DNA of 64,000 nucleotides from Dyella nitratireducens (lineage in GTDB: Bacteria; Pseudomonadota; Gammaproteobacteria; Xanthomonadales; Rhodanobacteraceae). The number at the start of each line of letters is the position of its first letter. Position 1 is the stretch's first letter. The notes beneath the pieces are model-generated. The model saw only the letters and a list, made by a program, of their open reading frames with translations. It ran no database searches and had not been told where the DNA came from. The stretch spans positions 2,204,943 to 2,268,942 of the forward strand of contig NZ_BMJA01000001.1 of assembly GCF_014642835.1 (NCBI RefSeq), given 5' to 3'. Shown one piece after another: positions 36,377-54,565 of this stretch. The translations under genes and the position numbers were made by a program.

Positions 36377-36421
36377 ATGGACGGCCGCAAAATCTTGCAG
36401 GATCCGGCTGCCGCCGAAAGT

Positions 36422-36979: not shown

Positions 36980-37032
36980 TCGACGTTTGCATGACGTTGG
37001 CGGCACGGCCGCGAACGCAACAAGGGGGGCAA

Positions 37033-37350
37033 ATGCAGGCTGTTCCAACTCATGAAGCACTCATGGCATCGCTACACCGATTGTTCGTGCTGGAAACAGC
37101 CGATGGCAGTCGCATCGAGGCGCGCCTGGCCGCTGCGCCAGTCGGCGTCGCGATGGATGAAACGTATGTCAGTTATTCGGCGATTTTCGAGCTGCCTGTC
37201 GGCATCTGGCTTCCCCAGGATACCTATCGCATTACGGCGCCCGATGGCGCGTGCTGGGATTTGCTTGCCACGCCGACGCGGCCCAGCGCCAACGGTCAGG
37301 CCAACTTGACTGCAGTCATGCATTACCTGCGTTCCAACGACACCGCATAG
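37033..37350 (+). CDS. DUF6916-like small protein
   Basis: The 105-residue protein starts at ATG 37033, with AAGGGGGG about six bases upstream; the frame is open further 5' but lacks a ribosome site. It is a compact beta-rich protein, LFVLETADGSRIEARLAAAPVG, FELPVGIWLPQDTYRITAPDG and DLLATPTRPSANGQANLTAVMHY. This is the pattern of DUF6916 proteins found with tail-collar genes. No signal peptide. It lies 53 bases after the GNAT gene and 71 bases before the first collar gene, suggesting one transcript. Confidence 0.7.
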   Translation: MQAVPTHEALMASLHRLFVLETADGSRIEARLAAAPVGVAMDETYVSYSAIFELPVGIWLPQDTYRITAPDGACWDLLATPTRPSANGQANLTAVMHYLRSNDTA

Positions 37351-37421
37351 CACGGCACAGAACTGTCGTGCCGGGTAGCGACGTCATCATTCGATCCTTC
37401 ACTTTCTAGCAGGGGAACATC

Positions 37422-38039
37422 ATGAGCGATCCGTTTCTTGGAGAAATTCGTTTTGTTGGTTTCACTTTCGCGCCGATCGGTTGGGCTCTGTGCAACGGAG
37501 CCCTGATGTCGATCAGCCAGAACAATGCGCTGTTCGCCTTGTTGGGTACAACCTATGGCGGCAACGGCCAAAGCACGTTCGGCCTGCCTGATCTGCAAGG
37601 ACGCACGCCGGTCGGTACGGGCACCGGCCTGGGGCTTAGTCCGGTAGTGCCTGGCCAGAAAGCCGGCATCGAATCCGTCACGCTCACCATCAACAACATG
37701 CCTGCGCACACGCATACAGCGCAAAGCAGCGGCAGTCTGTCGGTAAGCGGCAGTGTTTCGGTCCCGGCTTGCTCGTCGCCGACTTCCGGCACCGTTACGG
37801 CAACCCCCGGACCGACCGCGGTGTTGGGATCGATCAGCGCCGGTGGCCGGCCAGGTGAGCTGTACACCACGACGGCGCCCAACACCAATCTCCTGCCGTT
37901 TACGCTGCAGTCGACCGGTACGCTCCCTGCGATCACCGTCGGTACCACGGGCGGCAGTACGCCGGTTTCGGTGCAATCGCCCTACCTCGGTCTCACGGCC
38001 ATCATCGCGTTGCAGGGCATTTACCCGACCCGTTCCTGA
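37422..38039 (+). CDS. Tail-collar (microcystin-dependent-type) protein 1
   Basis: The 205-residue protein begins MSDPFLGEIRFVGFTFAPIG, where GEIR, FAPxGW and LGTTYGGNGQSTFGLPDLQGR are the phage tail collar domain (PF07484). A conserved HTHTAQSS stretch near residue 90 follows, with candidate metal-binding histidines, then a Ser/Thr/Gly-rich C-terminal part. In phages the collar domain joins tail fibre parts; free-standing bacterial relatives such as MdpB of Microcystis have no settled function. No other phage gene is in the window. CAGGGG lies about eight bases before the ATG. It is followed by a close paralogue. Confidence 0.9.
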   Translation: MSDPFLGEIRFVGFTFAPIGWALCNGALMSISQNNALFALLGTTYGGNGQSTFGLPDLQGRTPVGTGTGLGLSPVVPGQKAGIESVTLTINNMPAHTHTAQSSGSLSVSGSVSVPACSSPTSGTVTATPGPTAVLGSISAGGRPGELYTTTAPNTNLLPFTLQSTGTLPAITVGTTGGSTPVSVQSPYLGLTAIIALQGIYPTRS

Positions 38040-38159
38040 GGCTTGATCGCGGCCATGCATGGCCTGCGTTCCAAAGATATCGACCCGTGCGGCGCAGCGC
38101 CGCCGCACCGGGTGGTGACGTAACCACTCGATCCTTCACTTTCAAGCAGGGGGAACATC

Positions 38160-38777
38160 ATGAGCGATCCGTATATCGGCGAAATTCGTTTTGTTGGCTT
38201 TACGTTCGCGCCCGTCGGCTGGGCCCAATGCGTTGGCAATTTGATATCGATCGTCCAAAACCAGGCGCTGTTCGCCTTGTTGGGGACGGTCTATGGCGGC
38301 AATGGCCAAAGCACGTTCGGCCTGCCTGATCTACGCGGACGCTCGCCGGTTGGCACGGGCACGGGTATGGGGCTTGCCACGGTAGATCCCGGCGAGATGG
38401 GCGGCAGTGAATCGATCCAGCTCACCCTCAGCAACCTGCCTGCGCATACGCATACGGCGCAAAGCAGCGGCAGCCTGTCGGTAAGCGGCAGTGTTTCGGT
38501 CCCGGCTTGCTCGTCGCCGACCTCCGGCACCGTTGCGGCAAACCCCGGAGCGACCACAGTGTTGGGATCGATCAGCGCCGGCGGCCGGCCAGGTGAGCTG
38601 TACACCACGACCGCGGCCAATACCAACCTGAAGCCTTTTACCCTGCAGTCGACCGGTACGCTCCCTGCGATCACCGTGGGTACTACGGGCGGCAGCCAGC
38701 CGGTTTCGGTGCAGTCTCCCTACCTCGGTCTCACGGCCATCATTTCGATGCAGGGCATTTTCCCAACGCGGGGTTGA
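38160..38777 (+). CDS. Tail-collar (microcystin-dependent-type) protein 2
   Basis: It is the same length as protein 1 (205 residues) and about 85% identical by eye, differing mostly at residues 25-40 and 70-85 (for example VDPGEMGGSESIQLTLSNL against VPGQKAGIESVTLTINNM). The 30-base leader, including CGATCCTTCACTTTC and the ribosome site, is also duplicated, so the duplication took in the upstream region. The shared SVSVPACSSPTSGTV stretch holds the single Cys. The variable patches suggest divergence of a binding surface. Confidence 0.9.
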   Translation: MSDPYIGEIRFVGFTFAPVGWAQCVGNLISIVQNQALFALLGTVYGGNGQSTFGLPDLRGRSPVGTGTGMGLATVDPGEMGGSESIQLTLSNLPAHTHTAQSSGSLSVSGSVSVPACSSPTSGTVAANPGATTVLGSISAGGRPGELYTTTAANTNLKPFTLQSTGTLPAITVGTTGGSQPVSVQSPYLGLTAIISMQGIFPTRG

Positions 38778-39524: not shown

Positions 39525-42500
39525 ATGAAGAAGGCTCTGGAATTTCTCAAGCGGCTCGGTATGCGCGACCAGCGCAGCACTTCAACGGCGGTTGCGCCGG
39601 CGCCCTTGCTGATGGTGCTTGAGCCTCGCATTGTTTATGACGCATCGGTCGCCGCGGCCGGCATGGCGCAGCACCATGTCGAAGTCAACGCGCACATCGC
39701 TGGCATTCGGCCCCAGATCGTGCACGCGACCGAACTGGCCGCGGCAGTGGGGAGCGACGGCGCAACCCAAGCGCACGCCAGCACGCCTGCACGTAGCCTG
39801 GCCCAGGCGAACCGCGATATGACCAGTAGCCCCCAGGCCGGCCAAGTGGTTTTCATCAACTCCAACGTGGCCAACTATCAACAGTTGATCACGGGACTGC
39901 CGGCAGGCACACGCTATGTGGTACTGAACGCCGATACCGATGGTCTTCAGCAGATCGCCCAGTACCTGCAACAGCACCACGACGTGAGCGCAATCCACCT
40001 CATCTCGCACGGGGCGGACGGCGAATTTCAGGTCGGCGACACGTGGCTCACCGAAGGTGACCTGTCGGCGCATAGCGCCGAGCTTGCGCAGATCGGCGCG
40101 GCCATGAAGCCCGGCGGTGATTTTCTGATTTACGGTTGTGACGTCGCCGAAAACGCGGACGGCAAGGCGTTCGTGCAGCAGATCGCCTCGATTTCCGGAT
40201 TGAACGTGGCGGCGTCGACCGATGCGACAGGTGCGGCGGCGCTGGGCGGCGATTGGGTGCTCGAATACGATGCGGGCGCCGTACATACGCAGGTGATCTT
40301 TTCAACTGCGGCCGAGCAGCAATATGGCGCATTGTTGGCGGTGACGGATGAAACGTATGACAGCCAACTGGGCTACGTTACGCCAGGCGGCGCAACGGGA
40401 GTTACGTCGTTTTCGCTCGATGGCTTCACGTACACGATGGATCAGCCTGTCGAGTTTGCCGTTGACAGTACAACTGTCAATCAAGGCGGCACGCCGCCGT
40501 TGAGCACGGGTCCGACCGATGGGGTGCTGTTCGGCAATGTGCAGGGTACGCAATTGACGTCGATGACGATGACGTTGACAAACGGCGACAAGATGGCTGT
40601 CCAGAGTTTCGATGTCGACACATTCGGTGGAGCGGTGACGATCGAGGGACTCAATGCGTCCGGTAGCGTCGTCGCATCAGTTGCCATCAACGGTTCCACG
40701 AGTCATGTGGACCTTTCGAGCAACGCAGGGTTTTCCGGCATTACCAGTCTGAAATTTGTCGAGACGGACGGATTTTTCCTGTCGCCGACATTCAACAACT
40801 TCGCCTATGTCGATCTGTCGTCGCCGCCGACCATGACGGCCAGCGGCGGCAGCACGTCCTTTGTCGAAGCTGACAACGTCGCCTCCACGCCCGTTGTGAT
40901 CGACAGCGGAATCACCTTGAGCGATGGCGATGCGACCACTGCGAAGCAGGGCACGGTCAGTATCACCAGCAATTTCGCGAGCGGCCAGGACTCGCTGGCG
41001 TTCGTAAATACCAATTCCGCGATCTACGGCGATATCAGCGCCTCTTACAGCAGCGGGACCGGTGTGTTGACCCTGACGTCGACGAGCGGCACCGCCACTA
41101 TCGCTCAATGGCAGAACGCGTTCCGTGCAGTGACCTACACGGATACGACAGTGTCGCCGAATACGGCAACGCGCACGATCAGCTTTGAGTTGACGAGCGA
41201 TGCCTATTTCTCGTCCAGTAATACGGTGACGAAAAACGTGACTGTTACGGCGACGGATCAAACGCCGATCGTCACGACGACGGGGCATACGGCGACGTAC
41301 TACACGGGCGGATCGAGCGTGACGATCGATAGCGGCGTCACCGTCAGCGATCTCGACAATACAACGCAATCGTCGGGGACGGTATCGGTCACCGGGGGGT
41401 TCCATAGCGGCGACACGCTGAACTTCACGAACGACGGCTCGACGATGGGCAACATCTCGGGCTCGTACAACGCGGCGACGGGGGTGCTGACGCTGACCTC
41501 TTCCGGCGCCACGGCCACCGATGCGCAGTGGCAACACGCCCTGGATGCCGTCGCGTTTTCGAGCACGAGCACGACGCTCGGCAATCGCACGATTTCGTTC
41601 ACGACGAACGACGGCACGAAAACGAGCGCGGCGGCGACCGACATGGTCAATGTCGCGAATCCCATTCAGATCACGATGGATTCGGGCTCGGCCGCGTTCG
41701 TGGCGGGAGACAACGCGACCTCCACCCCTGTTGCGGTCGACTCGGGCCTGACATTGATCGATGCTGCAACCGGTACGCTCTCGTCGGCGACAGTCGCGAT
41801 CACGGGCGGCTTTGCGAGCGGACAAGACCGGCTCGCGTTCACGAACACGAACGCTGCGACGTTCGGCAATATCGCCGCGTCGTACAGCTCCGCGACAGGC
41901 GTGCTGACACTGACGTCGGCCGGTTCGACCGCGACGGTCGCGCAATGGCAAAGCGCGCTGCAAGCGGTGACTTACACCGACACGGCGGTTACCCCGAACA
42001 ACGCGACGCGTACGGTCAGCTTCGCGGCGACGGACAGTCTGGGCAATACGAGTGCCACGACTACGCGCACGGTGACCGTGACAGACACGGATCAAACGCC
42101 GATCGTGACGACAACGGGCGGCACGACGAGTTATGTGGGCGCAACATCGGCCGTGACGATCGATAGCGGTATCGTGGTCAGCGATCTGGACAATACGACG
42201 CAGGCATCGGGGACGGTATCGATCACCGGAGGGTTCCATAGCGGCGATACGCTGAACTTCACGAACGACGGCGCGACGATGGGCAACATCTCGGGCTCGT
42301 ACAACGCGGCCACAGGGGTGCTGACACTGGCGTCATCCGGTGCGACGGCAACCCTTGCGCAGTGGGATAGCGCGCTTCGCTCGGTGATGTTCTCAAGCAC
42401 GAGCACGACGTACGGCAATCGCACGATTTCGTTCGCGACGAGCGACGGCACGAAGACGAGCGTGGCGGCGACTGACACGGTCACGATCACCGCGCCGCCG

Positions 42501-45500
42501 GTGATCACGACCGATTCGGGTTCGGCTGCATTCGTGGCGGGCGATAACACGGCGTCGACGCCGGTAGTGATCGATTCGGGCATGACGGTGACCGATGGCA
42601 GCGCAACGACGCTGGGCACGACGACCGTTGCGATCACGGGTAACTTCCATAGCGGCGAGGATGTGCTCGCCTTCACGAACGACGGTTCGACGATGGGCAA
42701 CATCGCCGTCCAGTCGTATAACGCCGCGACGGGCGTGTTGACACTGACTTCTTCCGGCGCGACGGCGACGCTGGCGCAATGGCAGAGCGCGCTGCAATCG
42801 GTGACGTACACCGACACGGCCGTCACGCCGAACAATGCGACGCGCACGATCAGCTTCACCTCGGTCGATGGGGCAGGCAACACGAGCGCCACGGCCACGC
42901 GCACGGTGACGGTCACCGACACCGATCAAACGCCGATCGTAACGACGACAGGCGGCACGACGAGCTACGTGGGTGCGTCATCTCCGGTGACGATCGACGG
43001 CGGCATCTCGGTCAGCGATCTGGACAATACGACGCAATCGTCGGGCACGGTATCGATCAGCGGAGGGTTTCATAGCGGCGATACGCTCAGTTTCACCAAC
43101 AATGGCTCGACGATGGGTAACATCGCGGCCTCGTACAACGCGGCCACGGGCGTGCTGACGCTGACATCATCAGGAGCGACGGCGACCGACGCGCAGTGGG
43201 CCAGCGCGTTGTCATCGGTGACGTTCTCCAGCACGAGCACCACCTACGGCAACCGCACGATTTCCTTCGCGACAAGCGACGGCACGAAGACGAGCACCGC
43301 TGTGACCGACGCGGTCAATATCACGGCGCCGCCGACGATCACGACCGATTCGGGTTCGGCCGCGTTCGTGGCGGGCGACAACACGGCGTCGACGCCCGTG
43401 GTAATCGACGGGGGTGTGACGGTGACCGACGGCAGTGCGGCGACACTGGGCACGACAACGGTCGCGATCACGGGCAACTTCCATAGTGGCGAGGACGTGC
43501 TCGCCTTCACGAACGACGGTTCGACGATGGGCAACATCGCCGTCCAGTCGTATAACGCCGCGACGGGCGTGTTGACACTGACTTCTTCCGGCGCGACGGC
43601 GACGCTGGCGCAATGGCAGAGCGCGCTGCAATCGGTGACGTACACCGACACGGCCGTCACGCCGAACAATGCGACGCGCACGATCAGCTTCACCTCGGTC
43701 GATGGGGCAGGCAACACGAGCGCCACGGCCACGCGCACGGTGACGGTCACCGACACCGATCAAACGCCGATCGTAACGACGACAGGTGATACGACGAATT
43801 ACGTAGGGGGCACTTCCGCTGCGACGATCGATGGCAACATTTTGGTCAGCGATCTCGACAATACGACGCAATCGACCGGGACGGTCTCGATCTCGTCCGG
43901 TTTCCACAGCGGCGACACGCTGACGTTCGTCAACACGAGCTCAATGACGTTCGGTAACATCGTTGCTTCATACGATGCGGGAACGGGGGTATTGACGCTG
44001 ACCTCCTCCGGTGCCACGGCTACCGACGCGCAATGGTCCCAGGCCTTGAGTGCGGTGACATTCTCGGCCAGCTCGAGCGCGACGCCGGGCAATCGCACGA
44101 TTTCGTTCACTGTCAACGATGGCATCAAAAACAGCGCGGTGGGGACGGATACGGTGGCATTGCTTGGTCCGCCTACCATCGTGACCGATTCGGGTTCGGC
44201 TGCGTTCGTGGCGGGCGACAATGTGACGTCCATGCCCGTCGTCATCGATTCGGGATTGAGCCTGACGGACGGCACGTCGCCGACATTGGCTTCGGCTACC
44301 GTTGCGATCACCGGCAACTTCCGGAGTGGCGAGGACGTGCTCGCGTTCACGAACACGAGTTCGGCGACGTTCGGCAACATTGCGGCGTCCTACAACGCGG
44401 CAACAGGCGTGCTGTTGCTGACGTCTTCCGGCACATCGGCGACGCTTGCGCAGTGGCAGGCGGCGCTCGATGCGGTGACGTACACCGACACGGCCATCAC
44501 GCCCAACAACGCTACGCGCACCATCAGCTTCCAAGCTATCGACACCGGCGCCTTTCTGAGCAACACGGCTACGCGCACGGTCACGGTCACTGATACCGAC
44601 CAGACGCCAATCGTGACGACCACGGGTGGAACCACAAACTACGTAGGCGGTACGTCGGCCACGACGATCGACAGCGGTATCTCGGTCAGTGACAGCGATA
44701 ACAGCACGCAATCAGTGGGCAACGTCTCGATTACCTCGGGCTTCCACAATGGCGATACGCTTAGCTTCACGAATACCAGCTCGGCCACCTTCGGCAATAT
44801 CATCGGTTCGTACAACTCGGCGACTGGCGTGTTGACGCTGACCTCGTCGGGTGCCGTGGCCTCTGATGTGCAGTGGGCTAATGCACTTTCCGCCGTAACG
44901 TTCTCAGCGAGCACGACGGCGACGCCTGGCGACAGGACGATCGCTTTCACGACCAATGACGGCATCAAGACGAGCGCCGCGGCCACCGATACAGTGGATG
45001 TGCTCGCGCCACCGGTGGTTACGACAGATGCCGGTTCCGCCTCATTCGTGGCCGGCGACAACACGACCTCGACGCCGGTAGCAATCGATTCGGGCCTGAT
45101 CATTACGGACGGTGGGGCATCGACGCTGGCCACCGCCACCGTCGCGGTTACGGGCAACTTCCACGCCAGTGAGGACGTGCTGGCGTTCATCAATGACGGC
45201 ACGACGATGGGCAACATCAGTGCTTCGTACAATGCAGCCACGGGCGTGCTGACACTGACCTCGGCGGGTGCCACAGCCACGCTCACGCAATGGCAAAGCG
45301 CACTCGACTCGGTCACCTACACGGATACTGCCATCACGCCGAATACGGCGACGCGCACGATCAGCTTCACCGTGGTAGATGCAGGCGCTGTAACGAGCAA
45401 TACAGCCACGCGCACGGTTACAGTGGCCGATACGGACCAGACGCCGATCGTAGCGACTTCGGGTGGCTCGGCGGCATTTGTGGCGGGTGACAATACCGTG

Positions 45501-47876
45501 TCGACACCCGTGGTGATCGATGGCGGCATCACCGTGTCCGATCGCGACAACACCACGCTGGCGTCGGCCACCGTGGCCATCACCGGCAATTTCCACAGCG
45601 GCGAAGACGTGCTGGCGTTCACCAATGACAGCGCGACGATGGGCAACATCACCGCGTCGTACGATCCGGCGACTGGCGTGCTCACGCTTACCTCGTCCGG
45701 CGCGACGGCAACGGTCGCGCAGTGGCAAGCAGCGCTGGCTTCGATTACCTATACCGATACGGCCATCACGCCGAACAATGCTGCGCGCACGATCAGTTTT
45801 ACTGTCAACGATGGTGTGGAGAACAGTGCCGCGTCGACGCGCGCGGTCACTGTCACCGATACGGACCAGACGCCCATCATCACGACTTCGGTTGGAAGCG
45901 TTTCGTTTGTAGCCGGCGATAACACGGTCTCGACACCAGTGTTGATCGATACCGGCATCACGCTGTCGGACCGCGACAACACCACGCTGGCGTCGGCCAC
46001 CGTGGCCATTACCGGCAATTTCCACAGCGGCGAGGACGTACTCGCATTTACCAACGACGGCGCGACGATGGGCAACATCAGCGCGTCGTACGACGCGGCG
46101 ACCGGGGTACTCACGCTTACTTCCTCCGGTGCTACGGCGACACTGTCGCAGTGGCAGTCGGCGCTGGATTCGATCACCTATACCGATACCGCCATCACGC
46201 CGAACAACGCCACGCGGACGATCAGCTTTGCTGTCAATGATGGTGTGAAGAGCAGTGCCGCGGCGATACGGTCGGTCACGGTTACCGATACCGATCAAAC
46301 ACCCATCATTACGACGTCGGGCGGAAGCGCCTCATTCACCGCTGGCGACAACACCGTATCGACACCAGTGCAGATCGATACCGGCATCACGCTGTCGGAC
46401 CGGGACAACACCACGCTGGCTTCAGCTACGGTGGCTATTACCGGCAACTTCCACGCCGGTGAAGACGTACTCGCATTCGCTAACGACGGCGCCACGATGG
46501 GCAACATCACCGCGTCGTACGATGCGGCGAGCGGCGTGCTCACGCTTACATCCTCGGGTGCTACGGCGACATTGGCGCAATGGCAGGCAGCGCTGAAGTC
46601 GATCACCTATACCGATACCGCCATCACGCCGAACAACGCCACGCGCACGATCAGCTTCACCATCAACGATGGCGTCAAGACCAGCCTTGCAGCGATGCGC
46701 TCGGTGACGGTCACCGACGTCGACCAGACACCTGTCGTCACGACTTCCAGCGGCACTGCGGTCTTCGGCGGCATCGGGCATACCGCGCCGGTGTTGATTG
46801 ATCCTGGCATTACCGTCTCCGACCGTGACAACGCCACGCTTGCAAGCGCCACCGTATCCATCGTCTCCGGTTTCCACCGCGGTGAGGACCGCTTGTTGTT
46901 CGTCAACAACAGCACGTCCACGGGCAACATCATCGGCTCATACGATGTGTCGACGGGTATATTGACGCTCACGTCTGCTGGCGATACGGCCACGCTGGCG
47001 CAATGGCAAGCTGCGCTGGCCTCGGTAGCGTATACGGATACGTCGCTCACGGCTGCTGCTGGCAACCGGACCATCGCCTTTGTGGTAAACGACGGCACGG
47101 TAGATAGTGCTGCCGCGACGCGCGCAATCACTGTCAACGCGGGCTTCAAGGGCGTGACCTCTGTGCCGGCTGAGCCGCCTGTGCTACCCGTTGCACCGAC
47201 GACAGCAGAGACGGTGGATGTTTTGGCGAGCGAACCTGTCGTGCTGGATGCACTCGCACCAGAACTCGTACCAGGTCAACCCACGCTGCTTTTCCATACG
47301 GCAACTTTCACTGCCCCAAGCGCGCAACAAAACAGCCGTCCTGACGTGCTGGGCGAGACGCAGGTCAAGGCGCAGCCAATGGCGTTGCCCAAGTCAATCG
47401 TCGCGCCATTCAACGTGCCGGTTGTTACCGAACATCAAGCTGCTGCGCCGGGAGCCAGGTTCGCGCTGGCGCTTACCCCATGGGTGAGCGAAAACGCGAG
47501 AATCGTTGCCGTGACACAGGCCAATGGTCGCGCGCTGCCAAGTTGGGCGCACTACGACGCGGCCACCGGCCAGTTGCAAGGCCATGCGCCAGCACGCGGA
47601 CACGGGCCACGCGAATTGCGCCTGCTCGTGGCCATGCGTGACCAAGAAGGACATCAGTCGTATCGCGAAATCGTGCTCGATTTCGGCAATGGCCACACGT
47701 CTCACGCCAAGCTTCATCGCGGTACGCAGCATGTACCAACTATTGCCACAAAGCCCTCGCTGAGTGAGCAGTTCGAACGCGAGCGGCGCAGCTTCCATGT
47801 CGTTCGTTCTGTACCCATGCAGCATGAAGATTCGACGCCCGCAGTGCGCTCTTCGATGTCTGCCACGCACACTTGA
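39525..47876 (+). CDS. Giant LEPR/DUF4347 repeat surface protein
   Basis: The 2783-residue protein starts at ATG 39525 (GGAGAG about eight bases upstream). It has no classical signal peptide. The N-terminus carries LEPRIVYDA (residues 32-40), a motif of type I-secreted giant proteins, then DUF4347 (about 106-268; VVFINSNVANYQQLI, LISHGADGEFQ, FLIYGCDVAEN), and a beta-domain (about 274-430). Fifteen repeats of about 135-145 residues fill 435-2540, each with the core NFxSGEDxLxF, ATGVLTLTSSGATAT and AQWQxAL. A cadherin-like putative Ig domain follows (about 2646-2722). No RTX nonapeptides or clear C-terminal secretion signal are visible. It leads a five-gene export operon. Confidence 0.93.
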   Translation: MKKALEFLKRLGMRDQRSTSTAVAPAPLLMVLEPRIVYDASVAAAGMAQHHVEVNAHIAGIRPQIVHATELAAAVGSDGATQAHASTPARSLAQANRDMTSSPQAGQVVFINSNVANYQQLITGLPAGTRYVVLNADTDGLQQIAQYLQQHHDVSAIHLISHGADGEFQVGDTWLTEGDLSAHSAELAQIGAAMKPGGDFLIYGCDVAENADGKAFVQQIASISGLNVAASTDATGAAALGGDWVLEYDAGAVHTQVIFSTAAEQQYGALLAVTDETYDSQLGYVTPGGATGVTSFSLDGFTYTMDQPVEFAVDSTTVNQGGTPPLSTGPTDGVLFGNVQGTQLTSMTMTLTNGDKMAVQSFDVDTFGGAVTIEGLNASGSVVASVAINGSTSHVDLSSNAGFSGITSLKFVETDGFFLSPTFNNFAYVDLSSPPTMTASGGSTSFVEADNVASTPVVIDSGITLSDGDATTAKQGTVSITSNFASGQDSLAFVNTNSAIYGDISASYSSGTGVLTLTSTSGTATIAQWQNAFRAVTYTDTTVSPNTATRTISFELTSDAYFSSSNTVTKNVTVTATDQTPIVTTTGHTATYYTGGSSVTIDSGVTVSDLDNTTQSSGTVSVTGGFHSGDTLNFTNDGSTMGNISGSYNAATGVLTLTSSGATATDAQWQHALDAVAFSSTSTTLGNRTISFTTNDGTKTSAAATDMVNVANPIQITMDSGSAAFVAGDNATSTPVAVDSGLTLIDAATGTLSSATVAITGGFASGQDRLAFTNTNAATFGNIAASYSSATGVLTLTSAGSTATVAQWQSALQAVTYTDTAVTPNNATRTVSFAATDSLGNTSATTTRTVTVTDTDQTPIVTTTGGTTSYVGATSAVTIDSGIVVSDLDNTTQASGTVSITGGFHSGDTLNFTNDGATMGNISGSYNAATGVLTLASSGATATLAQWDSALRSVMFSSTSTTYGNRTISFATSDGTKTSVAATDTVTITAPPVITTDSGSAAFVAGDNTASTPVVIDSGMTVTDGSATTLGTTTVAITGNFHSGEDVLAFTNDGSTMGNIAVQSYNAATGVLTLTSSGATATLAQWQSALQSVTYTDTAVTPNNATRTISFTSVDGAGNTSATATRTVTVTDTDQTPIVTTTGGTTSYVGASSPVTIDGGISVSDLDNTTQSSGTVSISGGFHSGDTLSFTNNGSTMGNIAASYNAATGVLTLTSSGATATDAQWASALSSVTFSSTSTTYGNRTISFATSDGTKTSTAVTDAVNITAPPTITTDSGSAAFVAGDNTASTPVVIDGGVTVTDGSAATLGTTTVAITGNFHSGEDVLAFTNDGSTMGNIAVQSYNAATGVLTLTSSGATATLAQWQSALQSVTYTDTAVTPNNATRTISFTSVDGAGNTSATATRTVTVTDTDQTPIVTTTGDTTNYVGGTSAATIDGNILVSDLDNTTQSTGTVSISSGFHSGDTLTFVNTSSMTFGNIVASYDAGTGVLTLTSSGATATDAQWSQALSAVTFSASSSATPGNRTISFTVNDGIKNSAVGTDTVALLGPPTIVTDSGSAAFVAGDNVTSMPVVIDSGLSLTDGTSPTLASATVAITGNFRSGEDVLAFTNTSSATFGNIAASYNAATGVLLLTSSGTSATLAQWQAALDAVTYTDTAITPNNATRTISFQAIDTGAFLSNTATRTVTVTDTDQTPIVTTTGGTTNYVGGTSATTIDSGISVSDSDNSTQSVGNVSITSGFHNGDTLSFTNTSSATFGNIIGSYNSATGVLTLTSSGAVASDVQWANALSAVTFSASTTATPGDRTIAFTTNDGIKTSAAATDTVDVLAPPVVTTDAGSASFVAGDNTTSTPVAIDSGLIITDGGASTLATATVAVTGNFHASEDVLAFINDGTTMGNISASYNAATGVLTLTSAGATATLTQWQSALDSVTYTDTAITPNTATRTISFTVVDAGAVTSNTATRTVTVADTDQTPIVATSGGSAAFVAGDNTVSTPVVIDGGITVSDRDNTTLASATVAITGNFHSGEDVLAFTNDSATMGNITASYDPATGVLTLTSSGATATVAQWQAALASITYTDTAITPNNAARTISFTVNDGVENSAASTRAVTVTDTDQTPIITTSVGSVSFVAGDNTVSTPVLIDTGITLSDRDNTTLASATVAITGNFHSGEDVLAFTNDGATMGNISASYDAATGVLTLTSSGATATLSQWQSALDSITYTDTAITPNNATRTISFAVNDGVKSSAAAIRSVTVTDTDQTPIITTSGGSASFTAGDNTVSTPVQIDTGITLSDRDNTTLASATVAITGNFHAGEDVLAFANDGATMGNITASYDAASGVLTLTSSGATATLAQWQAALKSITYTDTAITPNNATRTISFTINDGVKTSLAAMRSVTVTDVDQTPVVTTSSGTAVFGGIGHTAPVLIDPGITVSDRDNATLASATVSIVSGFHRGEDRLLFVNNSTSTGNIIGSYDVSTGILTLTSAGDTATLAQWQAALASVAYTDTSLTAAAGNRTIAFVVNDGTVDSAAATRAITVNAGFKGVTSVPAEPPVLPVAPTTAETVDVLASEPVVLDALAPELVPGQPTLLFHTATFTAPSAQQNSRPDVLGETQVKAQPMALPKSIVAPFNVPVVTEHQAAAPGARFALALTPWVSENARIVAVTQANGRALPSWAHYDAATGQLQGHAPARGHGPRELRLLVAMRDQEGHQSYREIVLDFGNGHTSHAKLHRGTQHVPTIATKPSLSEQFERERRSFHVVRSVPMQHEDSTPAVRSSMSATHT
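42664..43786 (+). repeat. Perfect 289-base direct repeat inside the LEPR gene
   Basis: The sequence 42664-42952 is identical to 43498-43786 over all 289 bases, 834 bases apart, although surrounding repeats differ at many positions. Each copy encodes the second half of one type A repeat and its junction to a type B repeat. This points to recent gene conversion or duplication. Confidence 0.9.
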
Positions 47877-47903
47877 CACGATCATAGAATAGGGGATATC
47901 AAC

Positions 47904-49445
47904 GTGAATTCGCCTTTTCCCGCTGCGCGTACCGGTACCTGGCTTCGCCGCACTCCGCTGATGCTTGCATTGTCGACGGTGGTGTTGCTATCCGGTTGCG
48001 CCATTCATCCAAAACCGTTCACGGACGCTGAACGCGCGCACATGGCGGCAACCGAGCGCACCGAGATGTTCAGCCAGCAGGATCCGGTGAATGGTCCAAT
48101 CACGCTCGACGAGGCACTGGCGCGGGCGATCCGCTTCAACCTCGACCAGCGGCAGAAGATGATGGAGGAGGCGCTCGCGCAACGGCAACTGGATCTTTCC
48201 AACTTCGATCTGCTGCCGAAATTGACGGCGGCAGCCGGCTACACCGCGCGCAATCACGAGCTGGCTTCGCGCTCGGTGCTGCTCAACAATCCAAGCGAAA
48301 CCACGGTACCGCCGTCGTATTCCACCGACAAGGACATGCATACTGCGGACCTCTCGTTCTCCTGGAACTTGCTCGATTTCGGCGTGAGTTACTATGAGGC
48401 GAAAGAGCAGGCCGATCGTGTGCTGGTGGTACAGCAGCGCCGCCGCAAGGTGGTGCAATTGCTGATGCAGCAAGTACGCGAGGCGTACTGGGAAGCAGCG
48501 GGCGCCGAGCGCATTCATGACCGCATTGGCCCGCTGCTCGGCGCGGCGCAGTCAGCGCTTGACGATTCCAAGCGCGAGCAACAGGCACAACTGGCCTCGC
48601 CGCTGGATACACTCAATTACCAGCATGAACTGCTCGACCTCATGCGACAGTTGGAACTGGTACGCGACCAGCTCGAAGAGGCCAAGCCTAGGCTTGCTTC
48701 GCTGATGAACCTCGATCCTGGTAAGGAATTCACGCTTGCGCCGCCGGCCGGTTTCGACGAACCGCAATTCGACATGCCCGTCGCGCAGATGGAAACCACC
48801 GCTTTGGAGCGTCGTCCGGAGCTGCTCGAAGCAGGCTACAACGAGCGCATCGGCGTCAATGAAACGCACGAGGCGATGGCCAAACTGTTGCCGGGCATCC
48901 AGGTGGAGTTGGGTGAGCATTACGACAGCAACAGTTTTCTCGCCTTCCATACCTGGCGTGATGCCGGGCTGAGCGTGAGCTGGAATCTCTTAAATGTGCT
49001 GAACGTGAAGAACATCCGAGGCGAGGCCAAGGCCCAGCTTGACGTTGCGCGCGTCCAGCGCGAGGCATTGGCGATGGCAGTGCTGACGCAGGTGCATGTA
49101 GCGCGCACCGACCTGGCTGCCAAGCGCCGTCAGTTCGAGCTGCTCAAGCAGATGAATGACGTGGATCAACAGATCCTCGAACATACGCGCAACGCGGCCA
49201 ATGCGAATGCGGTCGGCAAGCTCAACGAGATCCGGGCGGCAGCCGGCGCGATGATGGCGGAGTTGCGCCTGTATCAGAGCTACGGTGAACTTGAAAGCGC
49301 CTATGGACAATTGCTTGCCACGCTTGGCCTGGATCCGGTACCCGATGCCGTGAAGTCGCACGACTTGGCTGCATTGGAGCAGGCGATCGATCAGGAGCAA
49401 AAGCATTGGGACACCCTCGCCCAGGGAGGCGGCAACAAATCATGA
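47904..49445 (+). CDS. TolC-like outer-membrane lipoprotein of the LEPR operon
   Basis: The 513-residue protein starts at GTG 47904, 27 bases after the giant gene, with AGGGGAT upstream. A lipoprotein signal ends VVLLSGC with Cys at residue 32. Two OEP-type helical repeats follow: ITLDEALARAIRFNLDQRQKMMEEALAQRQLDLSNFDLLPKL near 65-115 and RRPELLEAGYNERIGVNETHEAMAKLLPGIQVELG near 295-330. It would form the trimeric outer-membrane channel for export of the giant protein. It is a different branch from the NodT-type channel at 3764. Lipidation is less usual in type I channels but common in efflux ones. Confidence 0.9.
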   Translation: MNSPFPAARTGTWLRRTPLMLALSTVVLLSGCAIHPKPFTDAERAHMAATERTEMFSQQDPVNGPITLDEALARAIRFNLDQRQKMMEEALAQRQLDLSNFDLLPKLTAAAGYTARNHELASRSVLLNNPSETTVPPSYSTDKDMHTADLSFSWNLLDFGVSYYEAKEQADRVLVVQQRRRKVVQLLMQQVREAYWEAAGAERIHDRIGPLLGAAQSALDDSKREQQAQLASPLDTLNYQHELLDLMRQLELVRDQLEEAKPRLASLMNLDPGKEFTLAPPAGFDEPQFDMPVAQMETTALERRPELLEAGYNERIGVNETHEAMAKLLPGIQVELGEHYDSNSFLAFHTWRDAGLSVSWNLLNVLNVKNIRGEAKAQLDVARVQREALAMAVLTQVHVARTDLAAKRRQFELLKQMNDVDQQILEHTRNAANANAVGKLNEIRAAAGAMMAELRLYQSYGELESAYGQLLATLGLDPVPDAVKSHDLAALEQAIDQEQKHWDTLAQGGGNKS

Positions 49446-50197
49446 AGTTGCGCAGTATCGCTTTTGGCTACATCGTCTTGGCGATGTGGCCGACGCATCA
49501 GAGTAACGCGGCAGATCAACCACACCCGGCAGCCGATGACGGACGCATCCGCGTCCAATTGGTTTCACGCGATGAGGTAGAGCTATCCAGCGAGATAGCC
49601 GGGAAGATCGCCACGCTGCCATTTCGCGACGGCGATGCGTTCCACGTCGGGCAAACGCTGGTTTCGATCGACTGCGCACTCTACGACGCACAATTGCACA
49701 AGGCGCAGGCCGAATCAGAAGCCGCACAGGAGCTGCTGCAGGCCGATGCCAAGCTGGCCCAGTTCCACTCGGTCGGCGAGCTGGAAGTGGCACAGGCACG
49801 CGGCAAGGCCAAAGGCAGCGCTGCCGAAGTGGCCTACATGCAGGCCACCGTACACAACTGCGTGATCAGTGCGCCGTTCTCCGGCCGTGTGGTCAAGCGC
49901 ACGGCCGCACCCGATCAATTCGTGGAGGCAGGCAAACCGCTGCTGACCATCGTCGATACCAGCCACCTGGAATTGAAGATGATCGTGCCTTCGAAATGGC
50001 TGGCCTGGATGAAGCCAGGGCGCCCGTTGACCGTACAAGTCGATGAAGTTGGCAAGACTTATGACGCACGCGTTGCACGGATCGGCGCGCGCGTGGATCC
50101 CGTCACGCAAACGGTAGACGTTACGGCCGCGCTGACCGGCGAGGTTCCCGAACTTCTGCCTGGCATGAGTGGCTGGGCCACATTCGCTAAACCGTAA
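49442..50197 (+). CDS. Short periplasmic adaptor (HlyD/AcrA type) of the LEPR operon
   Basis: The 251-residue protein starts at ATG 49442 inside the stop of the channel gene (ATGA), so the two are coupled. An N-terminal Sec signal ends about residue 22 (HQSNAA). The lipoyl barrel-sandwich halves are VELSSEIAGKIATLPFRDGD and CVISAPFSGRVVKRTAAPDQFVEAGKPLLTI, joined by a short alpha-hairpin. A beta-barrel segment follows (LEL KMIVPSKWLAWM, then VDPVTQTVDVTAAL). It is shorter than usual adaptors and lacks a membrane anchor, so it may be a soluble periplasmic part linking channel and inner-membrane partners. Confidence 0.85.
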   Translation: MKLRSIAFGYIVLAMWPTHQSNAADQPHPAADDGRIRVQLVSRDEVELSSEIAGKIATLPFRDGDAFHVGQTLVSIDCALYDAQLHKAQAESEAAQELLQADAKLAQFHSVGELEVAQARGKAKGSAAEVAYMQATVHNCVISAPFSGRVVKRTAAPDQFVEAGKPLLTIVDTSHLELKMIVPSKWLAWMKPGRPLTVQVDEVGKTYDARVARIGARVDPVTQTVDVTAALTGEVPELLPGMSGWATFAKP

Positions 50198-50204
50198 CAG
50201 TGTC

Positions 50205-51578
50205 GTGACTCAAAACGTTCACATTGACGCGCCCCGGCTTGCCCTGATGTGGCAGCTTTCGGCGCGCGCCCGCGAGGCGGGCAACCAGGCAGCGCTGGGC
50301 TTCACCATCGTCAATGAAACGCAGTCGTTGATACCGTATCGGCAGGCAGCATGGTGGCGTGCCGGAGGTGCACTGCCAGGCGCCATCGCCGCCGTATCAG
50401 GATTGCCGCAATGCGATCCGGGCGCACCCTACGTGCAGTGGCTGACTTCGGTCAGCCGCGCGCTTGCACGCCAGCAGGTGCCGCAGGATGCGGCAGATAA
50501 CACGCAAGCACAGCCGCATGCTTTTACCGTATCGGATCTGCCTGTGGAACTTGCAGCGGATTGGGCGTCATGGTGGCCGGCGCATGCGTTGTGGTTGCCG
50601 CTGATCGATACGCGCAAGCGCATGCAGAGCGCTATCGTGTTCGCTCGCGAAGAGCCATTCAATCCGACCGAAAAGATCCTGCTTGCCGAGCTGGCGCAAG
50701 TATGGGCGCATGCGTTGCATGCATTCGAGCCGCAGGCTTCAGCGCTTGCACGCGTGACAGGGGCGTTACGGCAGGGCAAGCTACGGCGCCGCGTACTCAT
50801 TGCGCTGGCAATGGCCTGCCTGGCGCCCGTGCCGATGAGCGTGCTTGCCCCGGCCGAAGTCACGGCAAAAGACCCATTCGTGGTGCGCTCACCGCTGGAT
50901 GGCGTGATTGACCAACTCAACGTGCAGCCAAATCAGCACGTCGCGGTGGGCGCTCCGCTGTTTTCACTCGATGCGACGACACTGGCTTCGCGCGATGCGC
51001 TGGCGCGCAAGAATTACGCGGCGGCGCAGGAGGAATACCGGCAGACCGCGCAATTGGCCGTCACGGACGACAAGAACCGCCTCGACATGGCCTTGAAGAA
51101 GGGCAAGCTCGATGAAAGTGCCGTGGAACTCGACTACGCGGCAGCACAGCTTGCGCGCCTGCACGTTACCGCATCGCGTGATGGCGTGGCGGTATTCGCC
51201 GATCCCAACGACTGGATCGGCCGCGCCGTGTCGGTGGGCGAGAAAGTCATGTTGCTGGCCGACCCTTCCCACGTGGAATTGACCGCTTACTTGCCCGTTG
51301 CGGAAAACGTGGATGTGAAGCCGGGTGCCACGATGACGCTCTATCCAAAAAGCTCGCCCCTGGTCAGCTACGACGCGCGCATCGACACGATCGCGTATCG
51401 CGCCGAACCTACGCCCGATGGTGTGCTTGCCTATCGCATCAAGGCCAGCTTCACCAGCAATGCACGCCCCGTACTGGGCGTGATGGGCACCGCACGCGTC
51501 CATGGCCGTTGGGTGCCGCTGGCGTACTACCTGCTGCGCAGACCCTTGGCCACCGTGCGGCAGTGGCTGGGTTGGTAA
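50205..51578 (+). CDS. GAF-like/HlyD-type hybrid adaptor of the LEPR operon
   Basis: The 457-residue protein starts at GTG 50205, eight bases after the previous stop. Residues about 10-185 form a cytosolic domain with GAF-like character (AREAGNQAALGFTIVNE, then ALWLPLIDTRKRMQSAIVF). A single membrane helix follows near 205-225 (RVLIALAMACLAPVPMSVL). The periplasmic part is an HlyD-like adaptor: DPFVVRSPLDGVIDQLNVQPNQHVAVGAPLFSLD, a coiled-coil hairpin (about 265-310), and a beta-barrel. A cytosolic sensor-like domain joined to an adaptor is unusual. It may recognise the giant substrate or couple the cytosol to the channel. Confidence 0.85.
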   Translation: MTQNVHIDAPRLALMWQLSARAREAGNQAALGFTIVNETQSLIPYRQAAWWRAGGALPGAIAAVSGLPQCDPGAPYVQWLTSVSRALARQQVPQDAADNTQAQPHAFTVSDLPVELAADWASWWPAHALWLPLIDTRKRMQSAIVFAREEPFNPTEKILLAELAQVWAHALHAFEPQASALARVTGALRQGKLRRRVLIALAMACLAPVPMSVLAPAEVTAKDPFVVRSPLDGVIDQLNVQPNQHVAVGAPLFSLDATTLASRDALARKNYAAAQEEYRQTAQLAVTDDKNRLDMALKKGKLDESAVELDYAAAQLARLHVTASRDGVAVFADPNDWIGRAVSVGEKVMLLADPSHVELTAYLPVAENVDVKPGATMTLYPKSSPLVSYDARIDTIAYRAEPTPDGVLAYRIKASFTSNARPVLGVMGTARVHGRWVPLAYYLLRRPLATVRQWLGW

Positions 51579-51582
51579 GGCA

Positions 51583-53697
51583 ATGGCACAACTGCCTTCA
51601 TTACGCCAGGAACTGAGTTTGACGCGTGGTGCAGCGGCGCCTGACGGCTCACCGACCTGGATGTTGCACGATCCGGCGGCCAATCAGTTCTACCAGCTGG
51701 GCTGGCCGGCCTTCGAAATGCTCTCCCGCTGGACGTTGGATGACGCGCACAAAATTGTCGATGCGGTCAACGACGAAACGACATTGACGGTGAGCCTGGA
51801 CGATTTCGAAGCGCTGCTGCGCTTGCTTCAGCGCGCAAACCTGTTTGTGTCGGCAAGTGCCGACAGCACCGAGCACTTGCGCGCCGTGGCCGAAGCAAGC
51901 CGAATGACGCACGCGATGTGGCTGCTCAAGCACTATTTGCTGATTCGCATTCCTTTGTGGCATCCGATGCCGTTTCTGCGCCGCTGTGCACGTCATGTGG
52001 AATTCGTCTACAAGCCGGCGTTCTGGACCGTCGTGGGTATCTGCGCCCTGATTGGTTTGGCGCTGGTTTCGCGGCGCTGGGATTCGTTCGTGCATACCTT
52101 CCGCGCATACGCCGATTGGCATGGATTGCTCGCGATCGGCCTGACCCTTGCGTTCGCCAAGGTGCTGCACGAATTTGGCCATGCCTTTACCGCCTACCGT
52201 TATGGCTGCCGCGTGCCGACCATGGGCATTGCGGTGCTGGTCATGGTGCCGATGCTTTATACCGACACCACCGAGGCATGGAAGGTACCCAGCCGCAGCG
52301 CACGCCTGCACATCGGCGCGGCCGGCATACTGGCCGAACTCGCGCTAGCCGCTTTCGCCACGCTCGCCTGGAGCCTGCTGCCTGACGGTCCGCTTAGTGC
52401 TGCAGCATTCCTGCTCGCCACCACGACGTGGATCAGCACGGTGACGATCAACGCCAGCCCCTTTATGCGTTTCGACGGCTACTTTTTGTTGTCCGACTGG
52501 CTGGGCATGCCGAACCTGCATGATCGAGCCTTCGCGTTCGGCCGCTGGTGGATGCGCGAATGGTTGTTCGGCTTCGGCGATCCGCAACCCGAACCCTGCA
52601 CACCTGGTCGTCGCCGCTTTTTGATCGGCTTCACCTATGTGACTTGGTTGTACCGGCTTGTGGTGTTCTTATCGATCGCACTGATTGTTTATCACACCTT
52701 CTTCAAAGCCTTGGGCATGCTGTTGTTTGCCGTCGAATTTGGCTGGTTCATCGTACGGCCCATGGTGGGAGAAGTCGCCGCGTGCTGGCGTAGGCGCGAC
52801 GAACTCCGCTGGCGCAAGCAGACGGTGCGCAGTGTGATGCTCGGTACGTTTCTGCTGGGCTGGCTGGTCCTGCCCTGGCACAACGGCGTGGGGGCGCCCG
52901 CTGTGCTTGGTCCGTTGCGAGCGCAAGGTCTCTACGCGCCGGAAGCAGGTTACGTGTCGGCCGACACCGCCTTACCGCGCGACGGTGCGCATGTTCATGC
53001 GGGCGACGTACTTGCTGTGCTCGTCTCACCCGACCTCGAATATCGCTTGAAAGTGGCGCGCGCGGACGAAGCACTTTTGCATTGGCAAGTTGAACAGCAA
53101 TCATTTGACCAGCAATTGCTGGAAGAAGGAGTCGCTCTTCGTAAGCGTTGGGAGGCGGCGCGCGAAACAGTGGCAGGATTGGAACGTCAAACGCAGCAAC
53201 TCACCTTGCGCGCTCCCTTCGCCGGCACCGTGCAGACAGATGGCGAAGGACTCGCCAGCGGTACCTGGTTGCCGCGTGGCGAACATCTGTTCGACGTGAT
53301 TGGCCCCACAGGCATTAAAGGCGAGGCCTTTGTCGATGAAGAAGGTATCGGTCATGTTGCTGCGGGCGATTCTGCCCGCTTTTTGGCGTCCGTCCCGGAA
53401 ATAGGCACCCTGCATTGCCAAGTGACGGCCGTAGATCGCGTCAACCTTGCCACACTCGATGAACCTGCGACCGGCACACCTTACGGTGGCCCGATACCGG
53501 CCGAGAAGCAGCCGGCTACGCATCAGCTGGTACCGGTGGTTGCAACTTATCGTGTCCGTATCGGCAACTGCCGGGAGCGGACATCGCTCAGCCGGCAGAT
53601 GGTTGGAACAGCGAAGCTAGGACATGCTCGTGAAAGTTATGCATGGCGCATGCTGATGCGACTGGTGGCGGTGGTGGAGCGGGAAGCAGGTGGATGA
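51583..53697 (+). CDS. Membrane M50 metallopeptidase fused to HlyD-like adaptor
   Basis: The 704-residue protein starts at ATG 51583, four bases after the previous stop. Residues about 1-90 form a soluble, possibly PqqD-like domain (TWMLHDPAANQFYQLGWPAFEMLSRW). A polytopic membrane region follows with the zinc-protease motif HEFGH (residues 196-200) and a second motif NASPFMRFDGYFLLSDW (290-306), where Asp298 is the likely third zinc ligand. After the membrane part, a C-terminal adaptor-like domain (about 445-660) has lipoyl-type halves (YAPEAGYVSADTALPRDGAHVHAGD and LTLRAPFAGTVQTDGEGL) and a hairpin. There is no ATPase domain. It stands where a type I system has its ABC exporter. Confidence 0.9.
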   Translation: MAQLPSLRQELSLTRGAAAPDGSPTWMLHDPAANQFYQLGWPAFEMLSRWTLDDAHKIVDAVNDETTLTVSLDDFEALLRLLQRANLFVSASADSTEHLRAVAEASRMTHAMWLLKHYLLIRIPLWHPMPFLRRCARHVEFVYKPAFWTVVGICALIGLALVSRRWDSFVHTFRAYADWHGLLAIGLTLAFAKVLHEFGHAFTAYRYGCRVPTMGIAVLVMVPMLYTDTTEAWKVPSRSARLHIGAAGILAELALAAFATLAWSLLPDGPLSAAAFLLATTTWISTVTINASPFMRFDGYFLLSDWLGMPNLHDRAFAFGRWWMREWLFGFGDPQPEPCTPGRRRFLIGFTYVTWLYRLVVFLSIALIVYHTFFKALGMLLFAVEFGWFIVRPMVGEVAACWRRRDELRWRKQTVRSVMLGTFLLGWLVLPWHNGVGAPAVLGPLRAQGLYAPEAGYVSADTALPRDGAHVHAGDVLAVLVSPDLEYRLKVARADEALLHWQVEQQSFDQQLLEEGVALRKRWEAARETVAGLERQTQQLTLRAPFAGTVQTDGEGLASGTWLPRGEHLFDVIGPTGIKGEAFVDEEGIGHVAAGDSARFLASVPEIGTLHCQVTAVDRVNLATLDEPATGTPYGGPIPAEKQPATHQLVPVVATYRVRIGNCRERTSLSRQMVGTAKLGHARESYAWRMLMRLVAVVEREAGG

Positions 53698-54170
53698 GGT
53701 CATAGCGACGGCGTCGTGCAATTCAAAGTCATCGAAGCGCGCTACGACCAGGTGCAGGTCGCCAACCACAGCCGTGTGCAGACCAACCTGCTCAACGCGA
53801 CGCTCAGCCCGCTGCACAACGGCCAACTGGTCACGCAGGACGGCTTGGATCGCCAGCTGTTGTTGTTGAACGACCTGCAGGTCGTGCAAGGGCATGCGGT
53901 GCTAGGCCCCGGCAGCACGCCCGGAACCAGCGACCTCAGTGCCGATGCTCAGGCGTTGCCGCTCGTGACCGGCAACCTCACGCTGGATGATGCGGGAGAT
54001 CGCTATACCGGCGGCATCCGCTTAGGCGGCAACGTGGCCGTGAACAATCTGGCAGGCCTCGGCGATCAATTCAGTGTGGGGCTTTTGGCTTCCGACGAAC
54101 ACATGCACTATGGCCACGTGGCCTATGACTTTGCGATGGTGCAGGCACCCGGTTCGGATTGGCATGCTCT
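53698..54170 (+). pseudogene. Two-partner secretion transporter (TpsB, ShlB/FhaC) fragment
   Basis: The frame opens directly after the M50 gene stop and reads VVQFKVIEARYDQVQVANHS, then QLLLLNDLQVV and GPGSTPGTSDLS. These are the end of POTRA 1, the POTRA 2 region (LxRxLLLLNDLPGV in intact proteins) and the start of the barrel (TGGIRLGGNVAVNNLAGLGD). Both the N-terminal part and most of the 16-strand barrel are missing, about 155 residues remaining of some 550. No start codon or ribosome site fits. Near 54170 the match stops and a sulfotransferase match begins in another frame. It is a remnant of a TpsB gene, and no TpsA partner remains here. Confidence 0.8.
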
Positions 54171-54174
54171 GCAC

Positions 54175-54565
54175 GGACCTACTCTTCGATCGCGCGGATG
54201 CGCTGTTCGCGAAAGATCGGGTGATTGGCGCACCGCTTATCGCATTGCAGGCGGTGCTGGATTTGCCGGATGCGGTGAAGCAGCGGTTGTACTTCGTGCG
54301 CTTCGAGGATCTGATCGCGCAGCCCGTGAAGTGCATGTCGCATCTGTACGCGTGGTTGGGGCTGTCGCCGTTCGAAATTGATCCGGAGCAGCTCACGCTG
54401 GGGAAACAGGAAAGCGACAGCCACTACCGGATGAAGTACCCGCACCGGCAATCCGCTCGCATCGCGACGCCTACGCCGCATGCTGTGCCGCCATGGATCC
54501 AGAAACAGATCGAGACGGTATGGGCGTGGTTCTACCGGCTTTATTACGGCGAGAAGATGTCCTGA
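54175..54565 (+). pseudogene. Sulfotransferase C-terminal fragment
   Basis: In a frame shifted by one from the TpsB fragment, about 129 residues read DLLFDRADALFAKDRVIGAP, KQRLYFVRFEDLIAQPVKCM, LYAWLGLSPFEIDPEQL and ESDSHYRMKYPHRQ. These are C-terminal features of PAPS-dependent sulfotransferases. The N-terminal PAPS loop is absent. The gene is therefore inactive. It is not a copy of the intact sulfotransferase at 19386, whose C-terminus ends differently. With the fragment before it, it marks a deletion that joined two genes of a former secretion-and-sulfation locus. Confidence 0.8.

Follow-up and report, generated by a model that had tools for sequence, protein, structure and literature searches.

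A five-gene operon of Dyella nitratireducens as a candidate export machine for a tagged giant surface protein

Giant adhesins of the LapA and SiiE type are substrates of type I secretion, in which the usual signal is C-terminal, and in peptide-modification systems PqqD domains serve to bind the leader peptide. Elements of both kinds meet in an operon located in a 64,000-nt stretch of Dyella nitratireducens (assembly GCF_014642835.1, contig NZ_BMJA01000001.1, positions 2,204,943 to 2,268,942, forward strand), referred to below as the window. As in type I giant-adhesin secretion, a TolC-like pore and HlyD-type adaptors are encoded in the same operon as a giant repeat substrate. In contrast to type I secretion, the operon contains no ATP-binding cassette (ABC) exporter, an M50 protease with a PqqD-like domain is present at the inner membrane, and the giant carries a tag at its N-terminus rather than a C-terminal signal. 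On balance, the sequence comparisons described here slightly favor the view that these genes specify a dedicated exporter with a single substrate, the tagged giant surface protein; such export would be tag-directed, protease-gated, and distinct from type I secretion.

Operon organization and conservation

The operon consists of five forward-strand genes. The first (39525..47876) encodes the giant, a repeat protein of 2783 residues with a DUF4347 domain (Pfam PF14252, E = 4e-57), and is followed by a gene for a 513-residue TolC-like outer membrane factor (47904..49445; OEP, PF02321, E = 1e-34), a lipoprotein with a lipobox recognized by eye (LLSGC). A soluble periplasmic HlyD-type adaptor of 251 residues (49442..50197; HlyD_3, E = 1e-22; signal peptide by eye) precedes a 457-residue protein that combines a GAF-like cytosolic domain, one transmembrane segment, and a HlyD-type adaptor (50205..51578; HlyD_3, E = 8e-16). 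The last gene (51583..53697) encodes a 704-residue fusion of a PqqD-like domain, an M50 protease, and a HlyD-type adaptor, termed M50-HlyD (Peptidase_M50, E = 3e-7; HlyD_3, E = 6e-9); the genome has one other M50 gene, located elsewhere and with a full-length M50 match. Intergenic distances are 27, -4, 7, and 4 bases, the negative value reflecting an ATGA overlap at 49442. An original prediction made for this DNA had described five same-strand genes with gaps of 27 bases or less and one ATGA overlap, which the coordinates of the open reading frames (ORFs) bear out, and Pfam agrees with the families it named (a LEPR/DUF4347 giant, a TolC-like lipoprotein, a soluble adaptor, and an M50 protein with an adaptor). 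Its cytosolic-domain/adaptor hybrid, the fourth gene, indeed contains an adaptor, and the cytosolic domain can now be further assigned as GAF-like: it aligns to a profile from the sister branch described below (hhalign, 96%), a member of which (L076) has Pfam GAF matches, while the window sequence of this domain on its own has no Pfam match.

The five operon proteins were searched for Walker A-type, GxGK[ST], and LSGGQ-type motifs and contain none, as had been predicted, and the same kind of search revealed no ABC-like ORF of at least 150 residues within the 64-kilobase (kb) window. The comparison was extended to relatives. Among contigs in GTDB, at least 559 M50-HlyD relatives were found among 593 pattern matches listed, the best 80 of which were kept for locus comparison; the closest of the matches listed belong to Trinickia and Paraburkholderia, whose best segments are 69-74% identical, and the loci listed come from Pseudomonas, Burkholderiales, Pectobacterium, Serratia, Nitrospira, Azospirillum, Magnetococcales, and others. 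A second set comprised loci from the same class (L063-L101, 38 of 39 past the score cut), and the two sets may share genomes. Upstream sequence of at least 5.5 kb was available for 60 of the 80 loci, with a GAF-HlyD gene in 55, a same-strand gene of more than 600 residues in 53, a HlyD gene in 42, and an OEP gene in 41; all four partners occur together in 30, and some of those missing may be fused or shadowed ORF calls. In the gene maps, profile hits were given priority. At one locus, L085 (genome G056), the M50-HlyD coding sequence lies in three ORF pieces between the giant ORF and the adaptor ORFs.

No membrane-fused ABC exporter is present in the operons of these 118 loci (80 + 38), an operon being taken as the same-strand genes separated by at most 250 bases within the available contig; many of the loci are truncated at contig edges. 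ABC genes of any kind occur within the operon at 0 of 80 and 2 of 38 loci, and both are soluble, ABC-F-like proteins rather than exporters. An ABC exporter in the operon of most relatives, named in the original prediction as a finding that would refute it, was thus not observed, and the prediction is supported insofar as the M50-HlyD, adaptor, and TolC-like set is conserved with no such exporter among its genes. Three genes flagged as ABC partners (L074, L079, and L318) were rejected as soluble ABC-F-type proteins (PF16326); further ORFs flagged as putative ABC genes, at L077, L104, L177, L186, and L204, lie outside the operons. In Serratia marcescens (L218), the window-type operon has as its neighbor on the opposite strand a true membrane-fused ABC exporter with an adaptor-like gene, probably a separate type I system.

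The original prediction had proposed the co-occurrence of DUF4347 with M50-HlyD as a check. A survey of the same class covered 274 genomes, of which 42 encode M50-HlyD (at E 1e-10), 31 DUF4347 (30 over the cut-off), and 23 both, so that M50-HlyD is present in 23 of 31 genomes with DUF4347 and in 19 of 243 others (Fisher, 1e-15).

Correspondence between tag and machine

The giants begin with a basic stretch, followed by a short tag that is predicted to serve as an export or recognition signal. In the window giant the tag starts with LEPR at residue 32 and reads LEPRIVYDASVA (residues 32-43; 39618..39653, forward strand); L32, E33, R35, and D39 are invariant in 17/17 aligned N-termini. The giants fall into two dialects that follow two branches of M50-HlyD, the window branch and a sister branch in which a SecA-like ATPase gene adjoins the machine. 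The window-branch tag is LExR-h-h-(F/Y/L)-D-(G/A), and that of the sister branch is mostly LExR-h-L-x-S-(A/G), with a serine at the position of the aspartate and single variants such as VE.R, QE.R, or alanine for serine. The predefined model NF012209 (LEPR-XLL) matches the tag of the three sister-branch giants tested (L117, L115, and L083) and, at its curated score of 17 bits, none of the three window-branch giants tested (P0001, without a hit at E 0.001, L224, and L175). A degenerate DNA pattern of the tag had one match in the window genome, and the backwards control likewise had one.

The tag, expressed as LExR..FDG or LExR.LxSA, is present in 21 of 22 DUF4347 genomes with M50-HlyD and in 1 of 7 without it (Fisher, 1e-4). 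This table reads one DUF4347 gene per genome and counts 29 of the 31 DUF4347 genomes, G193 (N-terminus at a contig edge) and G068 (below the cut-off) being excluded. In the seven genomes without M50-HlyD, matches to the protein are confined to its HlyD part, except for one 32-residue piece in G186, a genome that is 81% complete; inspected by eye, the six untagged DUF4347 proteins from this group either have an ordinary signal peptide at their start or lack one.

Dialect and machine type, sorted by hand, agree in 39/39 cases (24 D and 15 S/A). A further 30 DUF4347 genes comprise 21 with D, 1 with E, 2 with S, and 6 without a readable tag (L290, L291, L295, L298, L299, and L300, with L291 and L299 cut off). 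The E variant, from Trinickia (L272), lies outside the tag expression and was spotted by eye. Both S tags come from a single genome, G304, previously known for a window-type machine alone, and this provided a test of prediction: a second M50-HlyD of the sister type was found there together with a SecA-like gene, in an operon with an S-tagged giant, and the D-tagged giant of the same genome (3208 residues) heads the window-type operon. The second S-tagged gene (L297) is on another contig. Pectobacterium aroidearum has two window-type machines, each adjoining its own D-tagged giant.

The M50-HlyD protein and the SecA-like partner of the sister branch

The original prediction had recognized the last operon protein as a polytopic protein with HEFGH and an adaptor domain, which holds, and had missed an additional PqqD-like domain at its N-terminus (51655..51867). 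Aligned by hhalign to a profile of 20 PqqD domains, this region scored 94.2% for the window branch and 96.6% for the sister branch, compared to 0.25% for a GAF control. Pfam PqqD (PF05402) exceeds its cut-off on the M50-HlyD N-terminus in two sister-branch genomes (G052 and G009) and narrowly misses it in G090. An AlphaFold2 model of the window protein, built from 51 sequences (the window protein and 50 of 73 full-length relatives), has a mean predicted local distance difference test (pLDDT) score of 88.4, and its N-terminal ~95 residues are arranged as strand-strand-strand-helix-helix-helix. Because the best 50 Foldseek matches listed for the model were adaptors alone, with no PqqD among them, the assignment is based on the profile matches and this order of three strands and three helices, the two features expected of a PqqD/RRE fold. 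A sequence search with P0005 against solved structures returned nothing at E = 0.01. Together, the profiles and the model suggest that the N-terminus looks PqqD-like, the leader-binding fold of peptide-modification systems.

The protease part bears both hallmarks of an M50 (site-2) protease in membrane helices, HExxH and N..P..xDG. HEFGH, the zinc/protease motif of the window protein, is encoded at 52168..52182, and a second motif, N..P..RFDGY, at 52450..52482. HExxH is kept in 111/111 full-length proteins, the window's included, as is the second motif, in a slightly different form in L092; this set contains one protein per locus of 640-860 residues and more than 200 bits, and shorter or weaker ones (e.g., L086, L097, L100, and L101) were excluded. 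The curated model of the daptide intramembrane protease also hits the protease part, with E = 3e-41 and a score under its cut-off. C-terminally, a periplasmic adaptor domain (52888..53637) resembles MacA, MexA, and EmrA in Foldseek. A positive-inside count with seven membrane helices predicts that the PqqD-like end is cytosolic and the HlyD part periplasmic.

In the sister branch, a SecA-like protein of 571-726 residues adjoins M50-HlyD in 17 loci. The two scanned by Pfam (L078 and L090) match SecA_DEAD at ~1e-100 and the preprotein cross-linking domain, and L078 scores under the curated cut-offs for both SecA2 and SecA. GxGK[ST] and DEAD are present in 17/17, a narrower Walker A expression having caught 15. 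Coverage of canonical SecA is at least 0.84 up to residue 650, except for 0.40 at 501-550, then falls to 0.17 at 651-700 and to 0 beyond; the missing C-terminal part comprises the scaffold, wing, and C-terminal linker of SecA. In a midpoint-rooted tree of the 111 M50-HlyD proteins, all 17 SecA-linked members fall into one 20-leaf clade (support 0.84). Of the three clade members lacking a linked SecA-like gene, that of G081 has one elsewhere in the genome, and those of G206 and G190 have none. PAS-GGDEF-EAL, PAS-GGDEF, or hybrid kinase genes were noted near sister-branch machines or giants (L077, L081, L088, and L115), hinting at control by cyclic di-GMP.

Mechanism, alternatives, and related systems

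The gene content, domains, active-site motifs, and predicted topology, together with the lack of an in-operon ABC exporter, the tag-machine correspondence, and the SecA-like partner of the sister branch, all established at the sequence level, suggest a four-step scheme. In the cytosol, the PqqD-like domain of M50-HlyD would bind the LEPR-type tag at the N-terminus of the giant. The giant would then be pushed across the inner membrane by SecA power, which the sister branch would draw from its dedicated SecA-like ATPase and the window branch from the housekeeping Sec system. The M50 protease may cut at or near the tag and thereby license release. Three adaptors, namely the soluble HlyD, the GAF-transmembrane-HlyD protein, and the HlyD part of the M50 protein, would connect as a channel to the TolC-like lipoprotein, and the giant would exit through the latter to the surface. 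The PqqD-like domain and the tag-machine correspondence, neither of them part of the original prediction, are what makes this mechanism concrete. A wider claim is advanced tentatively, as plausible but short of probable: a separate Gram-negative secretion class in which the LEPR-type leader of a giant protein is read by a PqqD-M50-HlyD protein and removed by its protease, transport across the inner membrane is driven by a SecA-family motor, and the giant leaves by a HlyD/TolC-like route, with two lineages using two dialects (D and S) and matching machines.

The original prediction had also proposed that the M50 peptidase takes the place of the ABC motor. As worded, this part is not supported: M50 proteases have no known energy source, and the sister branch has a SecA-like ATPase. 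The other option in that prediction, use of an unlinked ATPase, is possible for the window version, with housekeeping SecA or an unlinked ABC exporter as the motor; the window genome encodes one SecA and three unlinked HlyB-family exporters. In 15 window-type genomes, 13 have one strong SecA match, G235 has none, and G100 has two partial pieces; in another set of 11 window-type genomes, 9 have one strong match, the exceptions being G279 and G282, which also encode a sister-type M50-HlyD adjoining a SecA-like gene and, having been chosen for their extra SecA, provide no independent test.

Several observations weigh against a dedicated, tag-directed machine. Secretion, the four steps as events, and SecA as the driver of the window version are inferred, and the leader binding proposed for the PqqD-like domain draws on the tag-machine correspondence. 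The tag expression was devised after the sequences had been seen, only LEPR-XLL (NF012209) being predefined, and the tag region is, by eye, unlike an ordinary Sec signal. G077 has M50-HlyD and an untagged DUF4347 protein; G245 (L108), a 99% complete genome, has a tagged giant (LEKRIVFDA) whose contig ends inside the giant, and no M50-HlyD was found in it; and G299 contains untagged extra DUF4347 copies. Of the 23 genomes that encode DUF4347 and M50-HlyD, only 9 have the two genes within about 20 kb of each other; they are on different contigs in 13 (mostly drafts) and 39 kb apart in G106. DUF4347 is also dispensable to the set, since it has no match in 19 of the genomes with M50-HlyD; some M50-HlyD loci of DUF4347-free genomes (L069, L070, and L074) have a large cadherin/Ig-like neighbor. 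Pfam gave nothing at E = 5 or below on the window M50-HlyD N-terminus, and a PqqD match at this position was obtained in just 3 of 13 M50-HlyD genomes (94 genomes searched). The window genome has one SecA and no SecA paralog, and a SecA-like paralog is likewise lacking in the sister-branch genomes G206, G190, G052, and G094, the last two having one SecA only and an M50-HlyD too short for the tree. Finally, the caspase-like histidine of the DUF4347 domain, discussed below, is a glutamate in 3 of 17 aligned giants.

Alternative routes can be weighed against the same data. An unlikely one, though it draws on the SecA-like ATPase of the sister branch and the single strong SecA of most window-type genomes, is that the tagged protein enters the periplasm by ordinary Sec and that the M50 set serves the outer-membrane step alone. 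The tag, however, is charged (E, R, and D) and on inspection does not resemble a classical signal peptide, a cytosolic location is predicted for the PqqD-like domain, and the SecA-like proteins, ending near canonical residue 650-700, may not use SecYEG as usual. It is rather improbable that M50-HlyD and the adaptors instead process or release the giant after another exit route, or export a small cleaved peptide, as might be suggested by the nearest curated M50 models, which are small-peptide maturation proteases (daptide and YydH/LiaK), and by the retention of the active-site motifs in all 111 proteins. For processing alone, however, it would seem costly to surround one protease with three adaptors and a TolC-like protein, and the ordinary signal peptides, or none, of untagged DUF4347 proteins in genomes without M50-HlyD point to the tag as an alternative export signal.

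Ordinary type I secretion, with an ABC exporter encoded elsewhere and M50-HlyD as an extra adaptor, appears still less probable. The window genome does encode three unlinked HlyB-family exporters over the curated cut-off, which also counts against a dedicated machine, but none is near the operon. The window giant contains no RTX nonapeptide by pattern, and the operons of the 118 loci are free of membrane-fused ABC exporters, the one at L218 being on the opposite strand. Moreover, 9 of 24 window-type genomes have no listed match reaching the N-terminal (peptidase-like) part of the HlyB model, in a scan that scored 25 candidates per genome at an E cut of 1e-90, which PrtD-type or weaker exporters could escape; a HlyB-type exporter is therefore seemingly no general need. 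Two-partner secretion through a ShlB/FhaC-like protein encoded directly downstream is very improbable. A ShlB match does begin at 53716, but the segment 53716-54565 consists of an N-terminal fragment followed by an ORF in another frame (54074-54565). Only 60 of 311 model positions are matched before the reading frame breaks off, so that the gene seems broken and an intact TpsB partner is lacking, and 138 other loci contain no counterpart (phmmer, E = 1), which already disfavors this route. The ORF at 54074-54565 resembles a sulfotransferase by eye, an assignment that was dropped as it has no Pfam match.

Beyond its tag, the window giant contains the motif TDQTP eight times, spaced by 278-280 and then by 143 residues. 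Its DUF4347 domain (39846..40337) probably adopts a caspase/legumain-like fold. Foldseek matches to the domain model, which has a pLDDT mostly above 90, include Tce1, a type VI effector, at 2e-5, and caspases and legumain at 3e-4 to 1e-3; dehydrogenase-type folds follow from 2e-3 on, making the caspase/legumain match weak. The cysteine is invariant in the 17 aligned rows. Given the weak match and the glutamate in three sequences, self-processing by the domain is only a suggestion. DUF4347 is noted in PA0256 (PMC8262886), and a proteome table for B. thailandensis marks BTH_II1339, a protein with this domain, as 'Up' (PMC12322963).

Other genes of the window include a second giant surface protein ~10 kb upstream of the operon, a 2978-residue autotransporter with ESPR and passenger repeats (20317-29253). 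Directly before the operon, 36377-38777 contains a GNAT acetyltransferase gene and two tandem genes for 205-residue phage-tail-collar proteins (PF07484). Three resistance-nodulation-division (RND) pump genes are located at 5214-8399, 55350-58538, and 58855-62040, the latter two downstream of the operon on the other strand.

Despite the similar pore and adaptors, the operon is not assigned to type I secretion because an ABC exporter with its adaptor was looked for and not found in it. Among the openly licensed PubMed Central papers listed in searches, judged by title and the start of the abstract, none is on this gene set or links LEPR-XLL to a secretion machine, and no existing name for this export route was found. 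If the proposed scheme is correct, it represents a widespread route that handles giant surface proteins with no ABC motor encoded alongside in the operon, joining the leader-reading domains of peptide modification, membrane proteases, and giant-adhesin secretion, and it raises a yes/no question, namely whether the PqqD-like domain binds the tag peptide. The daptide and YydH/LiaK M50 proteases (NF041824 and NF058609) are homologous membrane proteases that act in small-peptide maturation; in contrast, the protein described here scores under their curated cut-offs, is fused to HlyD, and is accompanied by a TolC-like pore and a giant substrate. MacAB-TolC and MexAB-OprM tripartite pumps share the adaptor fold and the outer membrane factor, whereas no ABC, RND, or major facilitator superfamily pump is encoded in the operon. 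Accessory Sec systems resemble the sister branch alone, in that their extra SecA-like ATPase, SecA2, is encoded next to large-protein genes; the sister-branch SecA-like proteins, unlike SecA2, are C-terminally truncated; the window genome encodes no second SecA.

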